Positions 53,492 to 63,122 of a stretch of DNA of 64,000 nt are shown here, piece by piece. The translations under genes and the position numbers were made by a program. Origin of the DNA: Crossiella sp. CA-258035. GTDB taxonomy: Bacteria > Actinomycetota > Actinomycetes > Mycobacteriales > Pseudonocardiaceae. The DNA lies in the NCBI RefSeq assembly GCF_030064675.1, contig NZ_CP116413.1, positions 591,001 to 655,000 of the forward strand, in the 5' to 3' direction. The notes beneath the pieces are model-generated. The model had not been told where the DNA came from. It saw nothing but the letters and a program-made list of their open reading frames with translations, and searched no databases. Numbering within the stretch: position 1 is the stretch's first letter; every line of letters starts with the position of its first letter.

Positions 53492-56400
53492 GTGACCAAC
53501 CCGAACACCCGCCGCTGGCGTGCGCCTGCCGCGGCCGTACTGGCCGCAGCGCTGGGCACCGCCGCCTTCGGCCTGGCCGCACCGGCCGCCGCGGCGCCGC
53601 AGCAGCCGCCCCAGGCGGACAAGCAACTGGACAAGCGTGACCGTGAGCTGCTGGCCGAGGCCGCGCGCGAGGGCAAGCAGCGCGTGACCCTGCTGGTGGC
53701 CGCGGGCAAGGGCCGCACCGACAAGGCCGTCGAGGAGCTCCGCTCGCTCGGCGGCGAGGTGGAGACCACCGAGAAGTCGGTGGACTACGTCAAGGTGTCG
53801 GTGCCGAGGGAGAAGGCCGAGCAGGCCGCGAAGCTGAAGTCGGTGGACGCCATCGACATCGACGCGGTCATCCCGGTCGACGACCCGCGCCCGCAGCCCA
53901 ACGGCGCCGTGCAGCCGTTGCCGCAGAAGGCCCCCGACGCCAAGACCCCCCGGGTCAACCCCTACCTGCCGACCGGTGACATCGGCGCCGCGCAGTTCGG
54001 GCAGACGCTGCCGTTCTGGGACGGCCGCGGCACCACCGTGGCGATCCTGGACTCCGGCGTCGACCTGGACCACCCGGCGCTGGCCACCACCAGCACCGGC
54101 GAGCGCAAGATCGTGGACTGGTACACCGCGAACTCGCCCACCTCCGGCGACGGCACCTGGGTCGCGATGACCAAGACCGGCCGCACCGGCAAGTTCACCG
54201 AGGGCGGCCGCGAGTGGACCGCGCCGGCCACCGGTGGCCCGTACTCCTTCGGCCTGTTCAAGGAGACCGCGCAGGACCTGGGCGCGGCGGGCAGCGAGAT
54301 CGGCGGCGACGTCAACCGGGACGGCGACCGCGCCGACTCCTGGGGCGTGCTGCAGGACGTCACCACCAAGGAGGTCCGGGTCGACCTCAACGGCGACGGT
54401 GACTTCACCAACGACAAGTCGATGATCGACTACAAGGTCAAGCAGGACGTCCAGCACTTCGGCGCGGACAAGCCGGCCACCAAGGACGTGGTCGAGCGGA
54501 TGGCCTTCGTGGTGCAGACCGACCGCTCCATCTACGACAACGGCGGCACCCCGTACGTCAACCTGGGCATGGCCTCGGGCTCGCACGGTTCGCACGTGGC
54601 CGGTATCGCGGCCGGTAACAAGCTCTTCGGCGGCAACATCGCCGGTGGCGCGCCGGGCGCGAAGCTGATCTCGATCAAGGCCTGCCTGTCCAGCCCCGGC
54701 TGCACCTCCAGCGGGCTGATCGACGGCGTGCTCTACGCCGCGCGCAACGGCGCGGACGTCATCAACATCTCCATCGGCGGGCTGCCCGGTCTCAACGACG
54801 GCAACAACGCCCGTGCCGCGCTCTACAACCGCACCATCGCCGAGTACAAGATGCAGATCTTCATCTCGGCCGGCAACAGCGGCGCCGGCGCGAACACCGT
54901 CGGCGACCCCTCGGTGGCCACCGACGCGGTGAGCGTGGGCTCCTCGATCACCGCCGAGACCTGGCTGAGCAACTACGGCTCGGAGGCCGCGGCCAAGGAG
55001 GGCCTGCACCCGTTCTCCTCGCGCGGTCCGGCCGAGGACGGCGGCTTCAAGCCGAACATCATCGCCCCGGGCTCGGCGGTCTCCACCACGCTGCTCTGGC
55101 AGGCGCCCGGCCCGACCGCGGGCACCTACACCCTGCCCGCCGGGTACTCGATGTTCAACGGCACCTCGATGGCCTCCCCGCAGGCCACCGGCGCGGCCGC
55201 GCTGCTGCTCAGCGCGTACAAGGCCACCCACGGCGGCCAGCGCCCCACCCCGGCCCAGCTGCGCACCGCGATCTACTCCAGCGCCAAGTTCCTGCCGAAC
55301 CTGGGCGCCTACGAGCAGGGCGCGGGCAAGTTCGACGTGTGGGGCGCGTTCTTCGCCCTGCAGCGCGGCCCGGCCACCGACACGGTGCGCACCGAGGTCG
55401 AGGTGGACACCTCGCTGGAGGGCCAGCTGGCCAAGCCCGGTTTCGGCGTCGGCATCCACGACCGCGAGGGCGTGACCGTCGGCAAGGCCTACACCAGGAC
55501 CTACACCCTGACCCGGACCTCCGGCGCGGCGGGCGACCGCCGGTTCTCGGTGGACTGGGTGGGCAACGACGGCACCTTCTCCTCGGCCCGCTCGGTGCAG
55601 CTGCCGCTGAACACGCCGGTGAAGTTCGAGGTCAAGGTCAACCCGAAGGCCGCGGGCGCGCACTCGGCGCTGCTGCGGCTGGACAACCCGGCCACGCCGG
55701 GCATCGACCACCAGGGCCTGGCCGCGGTCTTCGCCGCCCAGGACTTCACCGCGGCCGCTGGCTACAAGGTGACCGCCTCCGGTGAGATCGGCCGCAACCA
55801 GGCCAAGTCGGTGTTCGTCCGGGTGCCGCAGGGCGCCAGCGCGCTCAAGATCGACCTGAACGCCGGTGGCCCGGCAGGCAAGGGCCAGGTGCGCTTCCTG
55901 CGCTTCGACCCGACCGGGGTGCCGAAGGACGTCACCTCGACCACCAACTGCTACAACCCGGACGCGGGCGCGGGCTGCTCTGGCGGCACGCCGGCCAGCC
56001 GCACCATCACCAACCCGCTGCCGGGCGTGTGGGAGATCATCATCGAGGCCCGCCGGACCTCGGATGTGAAGCTCGCGCCGTTCTCGGTCAGCGCCGAGGT
56101 GCTGGGCACCAAGATCACCCCGAACCCGGACGTGATCCCGACCGCGGCGGTGGGCACGCCGGTGCAGCGCCAGTACACGGTGACCAACTCGCTGGCCGGG
56201 TTCACCGGCAAGCTGGTCGGCGGCACCCTGTCCAGCGCCAGGACCGACCGGCCGAGCATCGCCAACGGGGCCGTGCAGCAGTACGACGTCACCGTGCCCG
56301 CCGGTGCGAGCAGCTTCACCGCGACCATCGGCAGCACCGCCGACGCCGCGGCCGACCTGGACCTGGTGGTGCAGAACTGCACCAGCGGCAGCTGCGTGGA

Positions 56401-56740
56401 CGCCGGTTCCAGCGCGGACGGCGACTCCGAGGAGTCGGTGACCATCGCCAACCCGGCCGCCGGCAAGTGGCGCGTGGTGGTCGACGGCTACTCGGTGCCC
56501 GCGGGCACCACCGCCTACGACTACCTGGACTCCTTCGTCTCGGCGGCGCTGGGCGGCATCGCGGTGACCGACACCGACGCCACCCGCGCCGCGGGGGCCA
56601 CCTGGACCGCGCCGGCGAGCATCACCGTCGCCGGGCAGCCGGGGGAGGGCAGGCACCTGCGGGGCGACCTGCTGGTGCAGACCGCGGACAAGGTGACCGT
56701 CGGCCGTGGCGCCGTGCGGATCCAGGCCGTGACCGGCTGA
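53492..56740 (+). CDS. Large secreted subtilase (S8) with I9-like propeptide and C-terminal beta domains
   Basis: A 1082-residue secreted protease. Signal peptide to about residue 35, with a twin-Arg-like RRWRAPAAA start. A propeptide (about 43-130) resembles the inhibitor I9 fold: KQLDKRDRELLAEAARE, then YVKVSVPREKAEQAAKLKSV. The catalytic triad is Asp187 (AILDSGVDLDHP), His365 (GSHGSHVAG) and Ser559 (FNGTSMASP). The D-to-H interval is ~180 residues instead of ~30 and contains DVNRDGDR and DLNGDGDFTND, calcium-loop-like motifs. The ~500-residue C-terminal part is beta-rich. AGGAAGGGA lies before GTG 53492. The next gene is its tandem paralogue. Confidence 0.93.
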   Translation: MTNPNTRRWRAPAAAVLAAALGTAAFGLAAPAAAAPQQPPQADKQLDKRDRELLAEAAREGKQRVTLLVAAGKGRTDKAVEELRSLGGEVETTEKSVDYVKVSVPREKAEQAAKLKSVDAIDIDAVIPVDDPRPQPNGAVQPLPQKAPDAKTPRVNPYLPTGDIGAAQFGQTLPFWDGRGTTVAILDSGVDLDHPALATTSTGERKIVDWYTANSPTSGDGTWVAMTKTGRTGKFTEGGREWTAPATGGPYSFGLFKETAQDLGAAGSEIGGDVNRDGDRADSWGVLQDVTTKEVRVDLNGDGDFTNDKSMIDYKVKQDVQHFGADKPATKDVVERMAFVVQTDRSIYDNGGTPYVNLGMASGSHGSHVAGIAAGNKLFGGNIAGGAPGAKLISIKACLSSPGCTSSGLIDGVLYAARNGADVINISIGGLPGLNDGNNARAALYNRTIAEYKMQIFISAGNSGAGANTVGDPSVATDAVSVGSSITAETWLSNYGSEAAAKEGLHPFSSRGPAEDGGFKPNIIAPGSAVSTTLLWQAPGPTAGTYTLPAGYSMFNGTSMASPQATGAAALLLSAYKATHGGQRPTPAQLRTAIYSSAKFLPNLGAYEQGAGKFDVWGAFFALQRGPATDTVRTEVEVDTSLEGQLAKPGFGVGIHDREGVTVGKAYTRTYTLTRTSGAAGDRRFSVDWVGNDGTFSSARSVQLPLNTPVKFEVKVNPKAAGAHSALLRLDNPATPGIDHQGLAAVFAAQDFTAAAGYKVTASGEIGRNQAKSVFVRVPQGASALKIDLNAGGPAGKGQVRFLRFDPTGVPKDVTSTTNCYNPDAGAGCSGGTPASRTITNPLPGVWEIIIEARRTSDVKLAPFSVSAEVLGTKITPNPDVIPTAAVGTPVQRQYTVTNSLAGFTGKLVGGTLSSARTDRPSIANGAVQQYDVTVPAGASSFTATIGSTADAAADLDLVVQNCTSGSCVDAGSSADGDSEESVTIANPAAGKWRVVVDGYSVPAGTTAYDYLDSFVSAALGGIAVTDTDATRAAGATWTAPASITVAGQPGEGRHLRGDLLVQTADKVTVGRGAVRIQAVTG

Positions 56741-56756
56741 CCAACTGAATGATCGG

Positions 56757-56793
56757 ACGACCCCGCCTGGGCTGCACTCCCGGGCGGGGTCGT
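56757..56793 (+). terminator. Terminator after first subtilase
   Basis: ACGACCCCGCC (56757-56767) and GGCGGGGTCGT (56783-56793), perfect 11-base arms, followed by TCTCTT. The interior CTGCACTCCCGG recurs in the terminator of the second subtilase. Confidence 0.85.
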
Positions 56794-56838
56794 TCTCTTC
56801 GGAGCGCCGGGACCGTCCATTGTGGATACCGTGCCAGC

Positions 56839-59800
56839 GTGACCACACCGCCTCGCCTGGTGCTCCTGCTCGTCAGCGCGGTCCTGGCCGCGACCGGACT
56901 CGCCGCGCTGCCCGCGGCCGCCGCGCCGCCGGTGAAACAGCTGGACAAGGCCGACCGCGGCCGGATCGCCGAGGCGCGCGGCGCCGGGCAGTCCACGGTG
57001 ACCCTGGTGGTCGCCGCCGAGCAGGGCCACGTGGGCGCGGCCGAGACCGAGCTGCGCGAGCTGGGCGGGGTGGTGCGCGCGGCCGAGCCCGCGGTGGGCT
57101 ACCTCAAGGTCGAGCTGCCCGCCGCGCAGGCGGAGCGGGCCGTGGCGCTGGCCTCGGTCAAGGCCGTGGACGTGGAGCACCTGGTGCACCGGGAGGACCC
57201 GCGGCCGCAGGGCGCGGACCAGCCGCTGCCGCAGTCGCCGCCCGGCCCGCTGACCCCGCGCGCCAACCCGTACCTGCCCACCAGGGACATCGGCGCGGCG
57301 GACTTCCCCGCCGACGGACGCGGCGTGCTGATCGCGATCCTGGACTCCGGCGTGGACCTCGACCACCCGGCGCTGGCCACAACCAGCACCGGCGAGCGCA
57401 AGATCGTGGACTGGCACAACGCGAACGCCCCTGACTCGGGTGACGGCGGCTGGGTCGAGATGACCACGAAGCTCCACAATGGACGGTTCCGCGAGCAGGA
57501 CCGGGACTGGGTGGCGCCGGCCGGGGGCGGCCCGTTCTCCTTCGGCCTGCTCACCGAGGTCGCGGGTGACCTCGGCGCCAAGAACAGCGAGGTCGGCGGC
57601 GACCTCAACCGGGACGGCGACCGCACGGACTCCTGGGGCGTGTTGCAGGACACCGCGAGCAAGCAGGTCAGGGTGGACCTCAACGGCGACCGCGACTTCA
57701 CCAACGACCGGCCGATGACCGACTACAAGGTCGGCTACGACGTCGGCCACTTCGGCGCGGACCGCCCGGAGACCGCGGTGCTGGACCGGATCGCCTTCGT
57801 GGTGCAGACCGACCGCTCCACCTACGACGGCCAGGCCACGCCGTATGTGAACATCGGGGTGGCGGGCGGCCTGCACGGTTCGCACGTGGCCGGCATCGCG
57901 GCCGGGCACAAGCTCTTCGGCGGGGCGATGGCCGGTGCCGCCCCCGGCGCGCAGCTCATGTCGGTCAAGGCCTGCCTGGCCAGTCCCGGCTGCACCAACA
58001 GCGGCTTGCTGGACGGGGTGCTCTACGCCGCGCGCAACGGCGCGGACATCGTCAACATCTCCATCGGCGGGCTGCCCGCGCTCAACAACGGCGACGATGC
58101 CGTGGCCGCGCTCTACAACCGCACCATCGCCGAGTACAAGATGCAGCTCGTCATCTCGGCTGGCAACGACGGCGCGGGCGCGAACACCGTTGGCGAGCCA
58201 GGCGCGACCGTGGACGCGGTGACCGTCGGCTCCTCGATCACCGCCGAGACCTGGCTGAGCAACTACGGTTCGGTGACACCGGTCCAGCAGGGCCTGCACT
58301 CCTACTCCTCGCGCGGACCGGCCGAGGACGGCGGCTTCAAGCCGAACATCATCGCCCCCGGCGCGGCGATATCCACGGTGCCGCAATGGCAAGAGCCCTC
58401 GCCGATCCCTGGCACCTACCCGCTGCCCACCGGGTACGCGATGCTCAACGGCACCTCGATGGCCGCCCCGCAGGCCACCGGCGGCGCGGCCCTGCTGATC
58501 GGCGCGCACAAGGCGCGGCACGGCTCCCGGCCCGATCCGGCCGCGCTGCGCAACGCGATCTACTCCACCGCGAAGTTCCTGCCGAACCTGGGCGCGTATG
58601 AACAAGGTGTCGGCCTGCTCGACGTGCCGGCCGCTTTCCGTGCCCTGCAACGAGGTCCGGCCCCGGAGAAGATCACCGCCGAGGTGCCGGTGCGGACCGT
58701 CCTCTCCGGCGAGCTGGCCAAACCCCATGTGGGCGCCGGCATCCACGACCGCGAGGGCGTTTCCGTCGGCCAGACCTACACCCGCACCTACACGCTGACC
58801 CGCACCACCGGCACGGCCAACCGCGCCTGGCACCGGGTGCAGTGGGTCGGCGACGACGGCACCTTCAGCTCGGCCAGCGGCATCCGGCTGCCGCTGAACG
58901 AGCCGGTGCGGCTGGACGTGACGATCACCCCGCGCACCGCGGGCGCGCATTCGGCCTTGCTGCGCATCGACAACCCGGCCACCCCCGGCGTCGACCTGGT
59001 CACCCTCAACACGGTGTTCGCGCCGCTGGAACTGGGCGCTGCCAACGGTTTCACCGCCGGCGGCAGCGGCGAGGTCGGCCGCAACGGCACCCGCTCCACC
59101 TTCGTCAGGGTGCCCGAGGGCACGACCGGGCTGAAGATCGACCTGGTCGGTGGCGGCGCGCCCGGCCAGGGACAGCTGCGCTTCCTGCCGTTCACCCCGT
59201 CCGGTCTGCCGTACGAGAAGACCGGTTCCGTGCTCTGCTACCAGCCCGACGCCGGCGGCGGCTGCCCCACCGGCGCACCGGCCAGCCGCACCGTGCTGTC
59301 ACCGATGCCGGGGGTCTGGGAGATCGTGGTGGACGCCCGGCGCACCTCCGACGCGCTCACCGCGCCGTTCACCGTGACCGCGGCCGCGCTGGCGATCAAG
59401 GTCCAGCCGGATCCGGACGTGCTGACCTCGGTGACCCGCGGCGCACCGCAGGCCAGGGAGTACCGGCTGCACAGCACGATGGCCCCGTTCACCGGGCGGC
59501 TGACCGGCGGGCCGATGGGCAGCGCCCGCCCACTGCGGCCCACCATCGCCACCGGAGCCCAGCAGAGCCACGAGCTCACCGTGCCCGAGGGCGCCACCTC
59601 GCTGACCGTGCGCACCGGCAACCCGGCCGACCCCGGCACGGACCTGGACCTGGTGGTCTTCGACTGCTCCAGCGGCGACTGCGTGCAGGCGGGCCAGAGC
59701 GCCGGGTCCAGCGCGGCGGAGGAGGTGACCATCGACAACCCCAGGGCCGGGCGCTGGCGGGCGGTGGTCGACGGCTACGCGATTCCCGGCGGCAGCACCG

Positions 59801-60027
59801 AATACGACTACCTGGACCGCTACGCCGCGCCCTCGCTGGGCGTGGTCGAGGTGACCGACGAGGACCGGCTGCGGGAGACCGGCAGCCAGTGGACAGCGCC
59901 GGGACTGGTGATCGCGCGCAGCGGCCTCACCGAGGGGCGCGAGCTGCGCGGGGAGCTGCGGGTGCGCACCACCGCCGAGGGCGTGGCCGCGGTCGGCGGC
60001 GTGGAGGTGCGCGCCGTCAGCGGGTGA
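56839..60027 (+). CDS. Second large secreted subtilase (S8), paralogue
   Basis: A 1062-residue secreted protease, closely similar along its whole length to the preceding gene. Signal peptide to ~29, I9-like propeptide (QLDKADRGRIAEARGAG; YLKVELPAAQAERAVALASV), Asp169 in AILDSGVDLDHP, His in GLHGSHVAG (about 346), Ser in LNGTSMAAP (about 540). The calcium-like DLNRDGDR and DLNGDRDFTND insert is retained. All catalytic residues are intact, so a recent tandem duplication with two active enzymes is likely. GTG 56839 follows the terminator of the first gene, so it must have its own promoter in a ~45-base gap or rely on read-through. Confidence 0.92.
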   Translation: MTTPPRLVLLLVSAVLAATGLAALPAAAAPPVKQLDKADRGRIAEARGAGQSTVTLVVAAEQGHVGAAETELRELGGVVRAAEPAVGYLKVELPAAQAERAVALASVKAVDVEHLVHREDPRPQGADQPLPQSPPGPLTPRANPYLPTRDIGAADFPADGRGVLIAILDSGVDLDHPALATTSTGERKIVDWHNANAPDSGDGGWVEMTTKLHNGRFREQDRDWVAPAGGGPFSFGLLTEVAGDLGAKNSEVGGDLNRDGDRTDSWGVLQDTASKQVRVDLNGDRDFTNDRPMTDYKVGYDVGHFGADRPETAVLDRIAFVVQTDRSTYDGQATPYVNIGVAGGLHGSHVAGIAAGHKLFGGAMAGAAPGAQLMSVKACLASPGCTNSGLLDGVLYAARNGADIVNISIGGLPALNNGDDAVAALYNRTIAEYKMQLVISAGNDGAGANTVGEPGATVDAVTVGSSITAETWLSNYGSVTPVQQGLHSYSSRGPAEDGGFKPNIIAPGAAISTVPQWQEPSPIPGTYPLPTGYAMLNGTSMAAPQATGGAALLIGAHKARHGSRPDPAALRNAIYSTAKFLPNLGAYEQGVGLLDVPAAFRALQRGPAPEKITAEVPVRTVLSGELAKPHVGAGIHDREGVSVGQTYTRTYTLTRTTGTANRAWHRVQWVGDDGTFSSASGIRLPLNEPVRLDVTITPRTAGAHSALLRIDNPATPGVDLVTLNTVFAPLELGAANGFTAGGSGEVGRNGTRSTFVRVPEGTTGLKIDLVGGGAPGQGQLRFLPFTPSGLPYEKTGSVLCYQPDAGGGCPTGAPASRTVLSPMPGVWEIVVDARRTSDALTAPFTVTAAALAIKVQPDPDVLTSVTRGAPQAREYRLHSTMAPFTGRLTGGPMGSARPLRPTIATGAQQSHELTVPEGATSLTVRTGNPADPGTDLDLVVFDCSSGDCVQAGQSAGSSAAEEVTIDNPRAGRWRAVVDGYAIPGGSTEYDYLDRYAAPSLGVVEVTDEDRLRETGSQWTAPGLVIARSGLTEGRELRGELRVRTTAEGVAAVGGVEVRAVSG

Positions 60028-60036
60028 ACCGGCTGA

Positions 60037-60492
60037 TCACGACGGCCCCACACCGGGCTGCACTCCCGGTGTGGGGTCGTCTCGCGGGATCAGCCGATCC
60101 AGTTCCACTGAGGTGACGGAGGGCAGCGCGGCGGCTCGTTCCACGGCGTCGAGGGGCACATCGACCCGCAGATATCCGACCGCACCGTCACTGACCTCCA
60201 CAGTCGCTCCGAGTTCGCGTAGCCCCTTGGTGACCTTGTCGGTCGCCCCGGGTTCGGTGAACACCATGAGCAGCATGGTCTTCCGGCCCTCCTGACGGGC
60301 CTTGGCCACCTGCTGGCGTTGCGCCTCATCGAGCTTGCGCACTGGCGACTCGCTACTGACCTGCGTACTGGGCGAACCACTTGCGGTGGGCGAGGGCGGG
60401 GAACCGGCCTGGGGCCGCGCGCCGCATGAGCCGAGGACCAGGGCGGCCGTGACCGCGAACACCCCGGCGCCGGCTCGGCAGAGCGGACCCAT
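60037..60492 (-). CDS. Lipoprotein with stand-alone subtilase-propeptide-like (I9) domain
   Basis: A 151-residue lipoprotein: MGPLCRAGAGVFAVTAALVL followed by GSC (lipid Cys23), a Ser/Pro linker, then a ~90-residue domain similar to the propeptides of the two neighbouring subtilases. KLDEAQRQQVAKARQEGRK matches their KQLDKxDR start, YLRVDVPLDAVERAAALPSV matches YLKVELPAAQAERAVALASV, and both continue into a D-D/E-D-P segment. No catalytic domain follows, so it should act in trans as an inhibitor or folding helper for the secreted proteases (inference). GAGGAG precedes ATG 60492. Its 3' end is convergent with the second subtilase. Confidence 0.85.
   Translation of the reverse strand: MGPLCRAGAGVFAVTAALVLGSCGARPQAGSPPSPTASGSPSTQVSSESPVRKLDEAQRQQVAKARQEGRKTMLLMVFTEPGATDKVTKGLRELGATVEVSDGAVGYLRVDVPLDAVERAAALPSVTSVELDRLIPRDDPTPGVQPGVGPS
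60042..60080. terminator. Terminator after second subtilase, inside the convergent lipoprotein CDS
   Basis: ACGGCCCCACACCGGG (60042-60057) pairs with CCCGGTGTGGGGTCGT (60065-60080), one mismatch. It lies within the last codons of the minus-strand lipoprotein gene and could end both transcripts. Confidence 0.75.
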
Positions 60493-60585: not shown

Positions 60586-61322
60586 ATGCATACTCAGTCG
60601 ATCTCGTTCGGGCGGCTCGCGTCAGCCGCATGGCCGGGCCTGCACGTCCGCGAGGTGGACGGCTGGCTGCTGCGCAGCGCGGGCGGCGTGACCAACCGGG
60701 CCAACTCGGTGCTGGCCGAGGGCGAACCGGCCGATGTCGAGGCCGCGCTGGCCGAGGTCGAACGGCACTACGCCCGGCTCGGCCAGCCCAGCGTGTTCCA
60801 GGTCAGCCCGGACAGCAGGCCGGCTGACCTGGACGAGCTGCTCGCCGCCCGCGGCTACCGGGTGGTCAGCCCGGTCCACGGCCAGACCGCGGCCATCCCC
60901 GAGGCGCTGGCCGCCCTCGGCGAGCAGACCCGGCACCCGGTGGTCACCGGGGAACCGACGGAGAGCTGGCTGGACCTGTACTGGGCGCAGAACGGCCAGA
61001 CCGACCCGGCGAGCCGGTTCATCACCCAGCAGATCCTGGCCGCGGTGCCGGGCGGGTATGCCGAGCTGGACGGCCAGGCCCTGGTCCGGGGCGCGCTGGT
61101 GCGGGACTGGGTGGGCATCTTCGGCATGTGGGTCGACCCGGCCGCCCGCGGCAAGGGCCTGGCCCGCGCGGTGCTCGCCGGCCTGCTGCGCTGGGCAGCG
61201 GACCGGGGAGCGACCCACGCGTTTCTCCAGGTGATGGTGGACAACACCGTCGCCCAGCGGCTGTACGCCAGTGCCGGGTTCAGCACGGTCAGCAGCTACC
61301 ACTACCGCGTGCTGGACCGCCC

Positions 61323-61326
<4 letters not shown>
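60586..61326 (+). CDS. GNAT-family N-acetyltransferase
   Basis: A 246-residue acetyltransferase. The acetyl-CoA loop MWVDPAARGKGLARAVLAGL is the R-G-x-G-x-A motif, and the C-terminal DNTVAQRLYASAGFSTVSSY is the conserved last helix/strand of GNAT. The N-terminal half is a divergent GNAT-like lobe. Substrate unknown. ATG 60586 is divergent from the propeptide lipoprotein. Its stop overlaps the convergent chitinase by four bases. Confidence 0.9.

Positions 61327-63122
<1,796 letters not shown>

Follow-up and report, generated by a model that had tools for sequence, protein, structure and literature searches.

What is a lipoprotein that resembles the propeptide of a subtilase doing beside two subtilase genes? 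The question is raised by a 64,000-nucleotide stretch of the soil bacterium Crossiella sp. CA-258035 (contig NZ_CP116413.1, positions 591,001 to 655,000; hereafter the window, with coordinates counted from its first letter), in which two genes of peptidase family S8, here S8a and S8b, lie in tandem on the same strand and face a convergent gene for a 151-residue lipoprotein on the opposite strand. A first-pass annotation had described this arrangement, with coordinates that proved correct, and had proposed that the lipoprotein acts in trans as an inhibitor or chaperone of the enzymes. We find that the lipoprotein is a homologous stand-alone copy of the S8 propeptide domain. On balance, it is probably a lipid-anchored inhibitor that acts on the neighboring protease in trans in propeptide fashion, most plausibly for self-protection. 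The features on which the argument draws are as follows.

53492-56740, forward strand: S8a, secreted subtilase, GTG start, 1082 residues, with a signal peptide (recognized by eye), a propeptide, an S8 domain and a C-terminal PPC domain
53624..53893, forward strand: propeptide domain of S8a, ending ...DDPRP, placed by alignment with the lipoprotein
54023..55324, forward strand: catalytic domain of S8a, with Asp (DSGVD), His (HGSHV) and Ser (GTSMA) motifs
56839-60027, forward strand: S8b, GTG start, 1062 residues, tandem relative of S8a
56938..57207, forward strand: propeptide domain of S8b, ending ...EDPRP, placed by alignment with the lipoprotein
60037-60492, reverse strand: stand-alone propeptide-like lipoprotein, ATG start, 151 residues, homologous to both S8 propeptides
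60424..60435, reverse strand: lipobox L-G-S-C, residues 20-23 of the lipoprotein, with Cys23 as the predicted lipidated residue
60067..60339, reverse strand: propeptide-like domain of the lipoprotein, residues 52-142, ending ...DDPTP, placed by the alignments and the fold model

The lipoprotein consists of a signal peptide with an n-region and a hydrophobic core, the lipobox LGSC, a 28-residue linker rich in Ser and Pro, and a single domain (residues 52-142); a Shine-Dalgarno-like AGAGGAG precedes its ATG. The domain is identical to the S8a propeptide at 40 of 99 positions (40%, E 9e-21) and to that of S8b at 40 of 92 (43%, E 3e-21). These alignments are significant, and the landmarks KLD, YLRVDVP and DDP are shared with the protease propeptides as the first-pass annotation had claimed. 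Strong matches to the domain in the organism's own 9.17-Mb genome are confined to these three genes, the next having E values of at least 0.058. The domain had also been called I9-like, a label that holds at the level of the predicted fold, which matches subtilase propeptides, and fails at the level of the family model: PF05922 (Inhibitor I9) gave no match at E<=1 in the lipoprotein, S8a or S8b, and assignment of the lipoprotein to that Pfam family was therefore rejected. The same model matches 11 other places in the Crossiella genome. An hhalign comparison with eight I9 propeptides of this genome gave a plausible register over 42 columns without significance (probability 1.3%, E 0.04), and a Fervidolysin_NPro-like N-terminal prodomain was matched below threshold in two related stand-alone copies (E 0.0086 and 0.047). 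Sequence searches of the PDB (best E 0.07, ribosomal protein S1) and of NCBIfam brought up no relative of the lipoprotein.

Both proteases are recognizable subtilases. PF00082 matches S8a at E 5e-47 (residues 178-611) and S8b at E 5.6e-42, the three catalytic motifs are present in both translations, and a long insertion separates the Asp and His motifs in each. The PPC domain (PF04151) is found at residues 931-999 of S8a and was also matched in S8b, and the two proteins are 69% identical across the propeptide and catalytic region. The best PDB sequence match of S8a is tripeptidyl-peptidase 2 (3lxu); the NCBIfam mycosin model and others match the S8 proteins, all below their cut-offs.

An AlphaFold2 model was built from nine sequences of the window and its near relatives. 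The lipoprotein domain was predicted, with fair confidence, as helix-strand-helix-strand-strand-helix-strand with a predicted local distance difference test (pLDDT) value of ~82, and the propeptide part of an otherwise poor S8a model has the same order of helices and strands (pLDDT ~70-89). Foldseek placed subtilase propeptides at ranks 2-15, with template modeling scores (by target) of 0.72-0.80 for isolated propeptides. With VIA-align, ProN-Tk-SP reached Z 9.8 over 82 residues, the Tk-subtilisin propeptides Z 8.3-8.9, CspB 8.8 and the BPN' prosegment 7.4. The predicted fold of the lipoprotein domain agrees with that of a subtilase propeptide, which is no proof of function.

If the lipoprotein is a partner of these enzymes, its orthologues should sit beside such genes, a check that the first-pass annotation had suggested. 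The loci of all 63 stand-alone copies were taken in (64 rows minus a duplicate locus and an S8 fragment, plus the window's own copy), and an S8 gene adjoins the copy in all 62 testable genomes, 58 times convergently and four times on the same strand (upstream of the S8 gene in G057, G066 and G068, downstream in G219). A contig break falls at the locus in G236, where copy and S8 gene both stand at contig ends. Among the 58, the S8 genes of G238 and G248 failed the automatic motif test and were placed by their coordinates; that of G248 is an open 1130-residue frame with GTSMA, and that of G238 is broken. The S8 frame is broken in both L068 (G238) and L141 (G223), by sequencing error or as a pseudogene. 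Measured convergent pairs have stop codons 1 to 2678 bp apart, and 7 of the 8 genus g8 loci checked with a gap >500 bp contain intervening gene-like open frames of several kinds (L059 is doubtful).

A profile built from 15 stand-alone domains was used to search 390 family genomes at a domain cut-off of E<=1e-10. The domain is carried by 157 of them, and 63 of these have a stand-alone copy. Counted against the genomes of each genus that have the domain, the stand-alone form is present in 5/5 for g1, 25/25 for g8, 23/24 for g25, 3/3 for g42, 1/1 for g43, 2/2 for g32, 1/6 for g23, 1/8 for g22 and 2/43 for g11. Two relatives matched in GTDB contigs belong to Crossiella. The S8 form is widespread outside the family, with matches in 88 of 397 genomes of the order, 49 of 394 of the class and 6 of 193 of the phylum; these samples overlap with the family search in the genomes they contain. 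No clear stand-alone copy outside the family was found in these 397, 394 and 193 genomes, where scoring covered no more than 13-27 candidates in each genome and remote copies may escape. Plasmid records yielded three matches (two annotated as S8 peptidases, one unannotated) and added no stand-alone copy.

A lipobox, by a relaxed motif and its spacing, is present in 59 of the 63 copies, which are hereafter called lipidated for short. The copies are also conserved as proteins: seven columns are invariant across 15 diverse stand-alone copies, and the rate of nonsynonymous substitution (dN) is below that of synonymous substitution (dS) in 20 of 20 chosen pairs, at ratios of 0 to 0.52, which points to purifying selection.

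Glu69 and Asp71 of the BPN' propeptide, described as helix caps (PMC6993865), map to columns 79 and 81 in our own alignment; an acidic residue is found at column 79 in 58 of the 59 lipidated copies and at column 81 in every one. In the x-P-x-P tail, column 90 is Arg or Lys in 83 of 102 S8 propeptides versus Thr or Glu in 58 of 59 lipidated copies. No column separates the two groups more strongly, though by a small margin (0.81, against 0.80 for column 23 and 0.79 for column 85). The S8 precursors run on to T-P-[RK]-x-N-P-Y, a stretch whose basic residue is found in 90 of 99 examined and which we take to be the maturation site. The stand-alone forms stop at or shortly past the tail and thus are without this stretch. 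In our reading of these alignments, the lipidated copy no longer has the basic residues where the enzyme would cut its own propeptide.

The recurrence of the copy and S8 gene as neighbors in many relatives suggests a dedicated inhibitor that guards the cell surface. The lipoprotein would be exported and anchored through Cys23 on the outer face of the membrane, where, on its flexible linker, it would bind the catalytic domain of the neighboring S8 protease in trans as a propeptide does. Its sheet would pack on the enzyme, the acidic-x-acidic pair would cap the enzyme's helices, and the C-terminal P-x-P tail would sit in the active-site cleft. An S8 enzyme active too early or too near the cell could be caught and blocked in this way, with the envelope protected and enzyme farther from the cell still active, which would amount to the immunity-like role suggested in the first-pass annotation.

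The chaperone half of that earlier proposal holds that the anchored copy helps the newly exported S8 protein to fold at the membrane, as a dedicated intermolecular foldase. It has precedent, since the propeptides of mesophilic bacterial subtilases act as both chaperones and inhibitors (PMC10580911), and an anchor placed where proteins leave the secretion channel would be well suited to such a task. However, every neighboring S8 protein identified has a cis-propeptide of its own (partly by construction, as these proteins were recognized through it), and 94 of the 157 domain-bearing family genomes have the S8 form without a stand-alone copy. There is also a natural loss: G229 retains only a degraded remnant of the copy (L115:3655-3825, forward strand) beside an S8 gene with intact motifs. 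A sensitive search of 33 copy-less loci (including G229, and 6 from outside the family) found no further copy. The cis-propeptides and the genomes without a copy speak against an obligatory foldase; we favor an inhibitor over a chaperone and consider a dedicated foldase unlikely.

Equally unlikely, in our estimate, is a membrane tether or adapter that keeps the S8 protease at the cell surface, with inhibition incidental. A tether could make use of the lipobox, of a linker that varies from 7 to 57 residues among copies and of a domain that presumably binds the catalytic part of the enzyme. Yet a domain bound in the way of a propeptide would occlude the active site, and the C-terminal tail is among the most sharply changed yet uniform parts of the copies. 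That the lipoprotein instead shields the cell against the subtilases of competitors, its place beside the S8 gene being merely historical, seems less probable still. Its predicted surface exposure and the promiscuity ascribed to mesophilic subtilase propeptides (PMC10580911) would fit a shield, but no stand-alone copy occurs without the S8 form among the 390 family genomes searched, and copy and protease stay neighbors despite the intervening frames of the wide-gap loci, so that the neighborhood survives insertions. A duplicated propeptide fragment that gained a lipobox and has no important function would account for the patchy presence and the degraded copy of G229, but is very improbable given the excess of synonymous change in all chosen pairs, the invariant columns and the near-universal occurrence in g8 and g25.

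Several observations weigh against the lipid-anchored inhibitor itself. NapD, which shares the general arrangement, is the first-ranked Foldseek match and reaches Z 9.5, unrelated rows reach up to Z 8.0, and no Foldseek match passes E 0.001; with NapD scoring as high as most propeptides, the fold alone indicates no function. In the S8a precursor model the catalytic part is too poor (mean pLDDT 36) for any docking to be derived. The four copies of G155, G164, G328 and G329 have neither a lipobox nor, by eye, a signal peptide; at column 79 the acidic residue is replaced by Gln in every one of them, column 81 is Leu in two, and a Lys stands at column 90 in one. The change from Arg or Lys to Thr or Glu in the lipidated copies may be a founder effect. 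The 94 genomes with the S8 form alone, together with the loss in G229, show the copy to be non-essential. Another inhibitor family is also already at hand, as Streptomyces subtilisin inhibitor (SSI)-type proteins (PF00720) were found in 79 of 80 sampled genomes. All 41 sampled genomes that carry the copy have them, as do 38 of the 39 that lack it, so the copy was rejected as a substitute for SSI and would add to that system rather than replace it.

The genome of the window has five SSI-type genes (G000:C1:548477, 1089704, 1090213, 1527221 and 5035683), one of them ~96 kb from the locus, and an SSI gene lies ~40-50 kb from the S8 gene in several g8, g25 and g42 genomes.

The origin of the copies was approached with a quick tree of 165 rows and 91 columns, which is weakly resolved. 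The S8 label requires two changes on it, and the three labels together three, where two is the least possible. The approximately unbiased test does not reject a single clade of the 59 lipidated copies (p 0.77) or of all 63 (p 0.80), and trees holding the stand-alone copies together scored better. The four unlipidated copies form one supported group, to which a long-branch warning applies. A strongly supported branch joins all 63 copies with 16 S8 propeptides, and the nearest row to the window's copy outside its genus is an S8 propeptide, so that a separate origin of the Crossiella copy is conceivable. One or a few origins of the stand-alone copies are possible on this tree.

A wider proposal, to which we would give somewhat less than an even chance, is that the locus exemplifies an undescribed bacterial control module, in which a secreted subtilase is paired with a lipid-anchored, cleavage-resistant copy of its propeptide as a cell-surface 'immunity' inhibitor. 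On this view the copy would date from one or a few early events in the history of the family and persist in nine of the sampled genera; a few lineages would use an unsecreted version to guard the cytoplasm, and other families would fill the same convergent slot with an unrelated lipoprotein.

A different small lipoprotein does occupy the convergent slot, 1-78 bp from the S8 stop codon, at L134 and L135 (family f15) and at L138 and L142 (family f41). These proteins have ~110-130 residues after the Cys, and the one at L138 has a sub-threshold match to DUF5818 (E 1.4e-4); they may be unrelated proteins with an analogous role. L135 (G593) is also a tandem S8 pair outside the family, and no stand-alone propeptide copy was found at this locus.

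Stand-alone propeptide-like inhibitors have been described in fungi, plants and apicomplexans (PMC6993865), and the lipidated bacterial copy reported here, which is real and conserved, would be a counterpart to such known eukaryotic inhibitors. The closest parallel is SUB1-ProM of Plasmodium, a potent inhibitor of SUB1 whose gene adjoins subtilisin genes (PMC6993865). It shares with the Crossiella lipoprotein its stand-alone nature, a secretory signal, a conserved locus beside subtilisin-like genes, a predicted propeptide fold and a helix-capping acidic residue. The two differ in that SUB1-ProM is eukaryotic and has no lipid anchor described in the excerpts of PMC6993865, whereas the lipoprotein here has a lipobox; the likeness of SUB1-ProM to the SUB1 propeptide was found by structure modeling, whereas that of the Crossiella pair is plain in sequence (40-43%); and inhibition was measured for SUB1-ProM, whereas the Crossiella lipoprotein would be expected to inhibit by analogy. 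The stand-alone I9 inhibitors of MEROPS (Pleurotus peptidase A inhibitor 1, yeast peptidase B inhibitor and Arabidopsis SPI-1) and TgMIC5 of Toxoplasma are likewise encoded by small genes of their own, repeat the fold of the propeptide and act as inhibitors or regulators of subtilases (PMC6993865), but all are eukaryotic, and PF05922 is unmatched in the Crossiella protein. The BPN', Tk-subtilisin, Tk-SP and fervidolysin propeptides resemble it in predicted fold, in the acidic capping pair and through the sub-threshold Fervidolysin_NPro-like matches; they are part of a precursor, whereas it is a separate gene product with a lipobox. SSI is likewise an actinomycete subtilase inhibitor, but belongs to a different Pfam family. 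That a detached propeptide can inhibit is illustrated by pernisine, an archaeal subtilase strongly inhibited by its isolated propeptide (PMC10580911). The open-access literature, searched by titles and abstract openings, held no bacterial lipidated stand-alone subtilase propeptide among the matches listed.

Filamentous actinomycetes secrete large subtilases able to break up their own mycelium. In Actinosynnema, mycelial fragmentation was attributed to the large subtilase APASM_4178 (1091 residues) and was relieved by SSI overexpression, and deletion of one large subtilase or overexpression of subtilisin inhibitors altered morphology and antibiotic yield (PMC7356834). A dedicated lipid-anchored inhibitor, if our interpretation is true, would account for the sparing of the cell surface and offer a simple engineering handle. 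An inhibitor class whose examples in the excerpts of PMC6993865 are eukaryotic would also gain a bacterial member with visible propeptide ancestry. A direct link between APASM_4178 and the S8 genes of G057, G066 and G068 was looked for and did not emerge: starts within their first 60 codons give 1079 or 1060 residues and not 1091. The two published AdpA motifs (PMC7356834) were searched in the same genomes and gave no link either: TGACGGGGAG is absent from the three loci, CGCGCCGCCA occurs only far from the S8 start, and the pair of TGACGGGGAG and CGCGCCGCCA at a guessed spacing of 20-50 is absent from all three genomes.

Weak candidates for further stand-alone copies were also considered. L084 (E 7.7e-4) was counted as a different protein, with no S8 gene recognized by eye in 5.9 kb; L083 and L086 were set aside as other small proteins, and L085 and L087 appear by eye to be broken S8 genes. 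The frames at L083:3308-3655 (forward strand, 115 residues) and L086:3605-3853 (reverse strand, 82 residues) have no signal peptide, end in PPPDSP[VI]Q and show weak similarity to the domain. Both overlap the end of an upstream same-strand frame of 389-466 residues that is S8-like by eye, and they are possibly another stand-alone propeptide-like partner. Three weak matches outside the family (G505:C477, G545:C390 and G919) remain as candidates.

The spaces 3' of the two S8 genes each hold a terminator-type hairpin, as follows.

56755..56795, forward strand: hairpin 3' of S8a (-40.9 kcal/mol for 56741-56805, z -5.6)
60041..60081, forward strand: hairpin 3' of S8b (-49.5 kcal/mol for 60028-60095, z -6.7)

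Both hairpins are strong, and because they are similar and have identical loop sequences, the terminator was probably duplicated along with the S8 gene. Only 9 nucleotides lie between the stop codons of S8b and the lipoprotein gene, and the hairpin of S8b overlaps, on the opposite strand, the last codons of the lipoprotein gene. These codons encode a tail of 9-10 residues after DPTP that, among stand-alone copies, is restricted to those of the genus Crossiella; the lipoprotein thus owes its additional C-terminal residues to the opposite strand of the second hairpin (60041-60081). Beyond the locus, the window has an open frame at 60586-61326 that we take to be GNAT-like from the look of its sequence, followed at 61323-63122 (reverse strand) by what is presumably a secreted GH18-type chitinase, judged in the same way.

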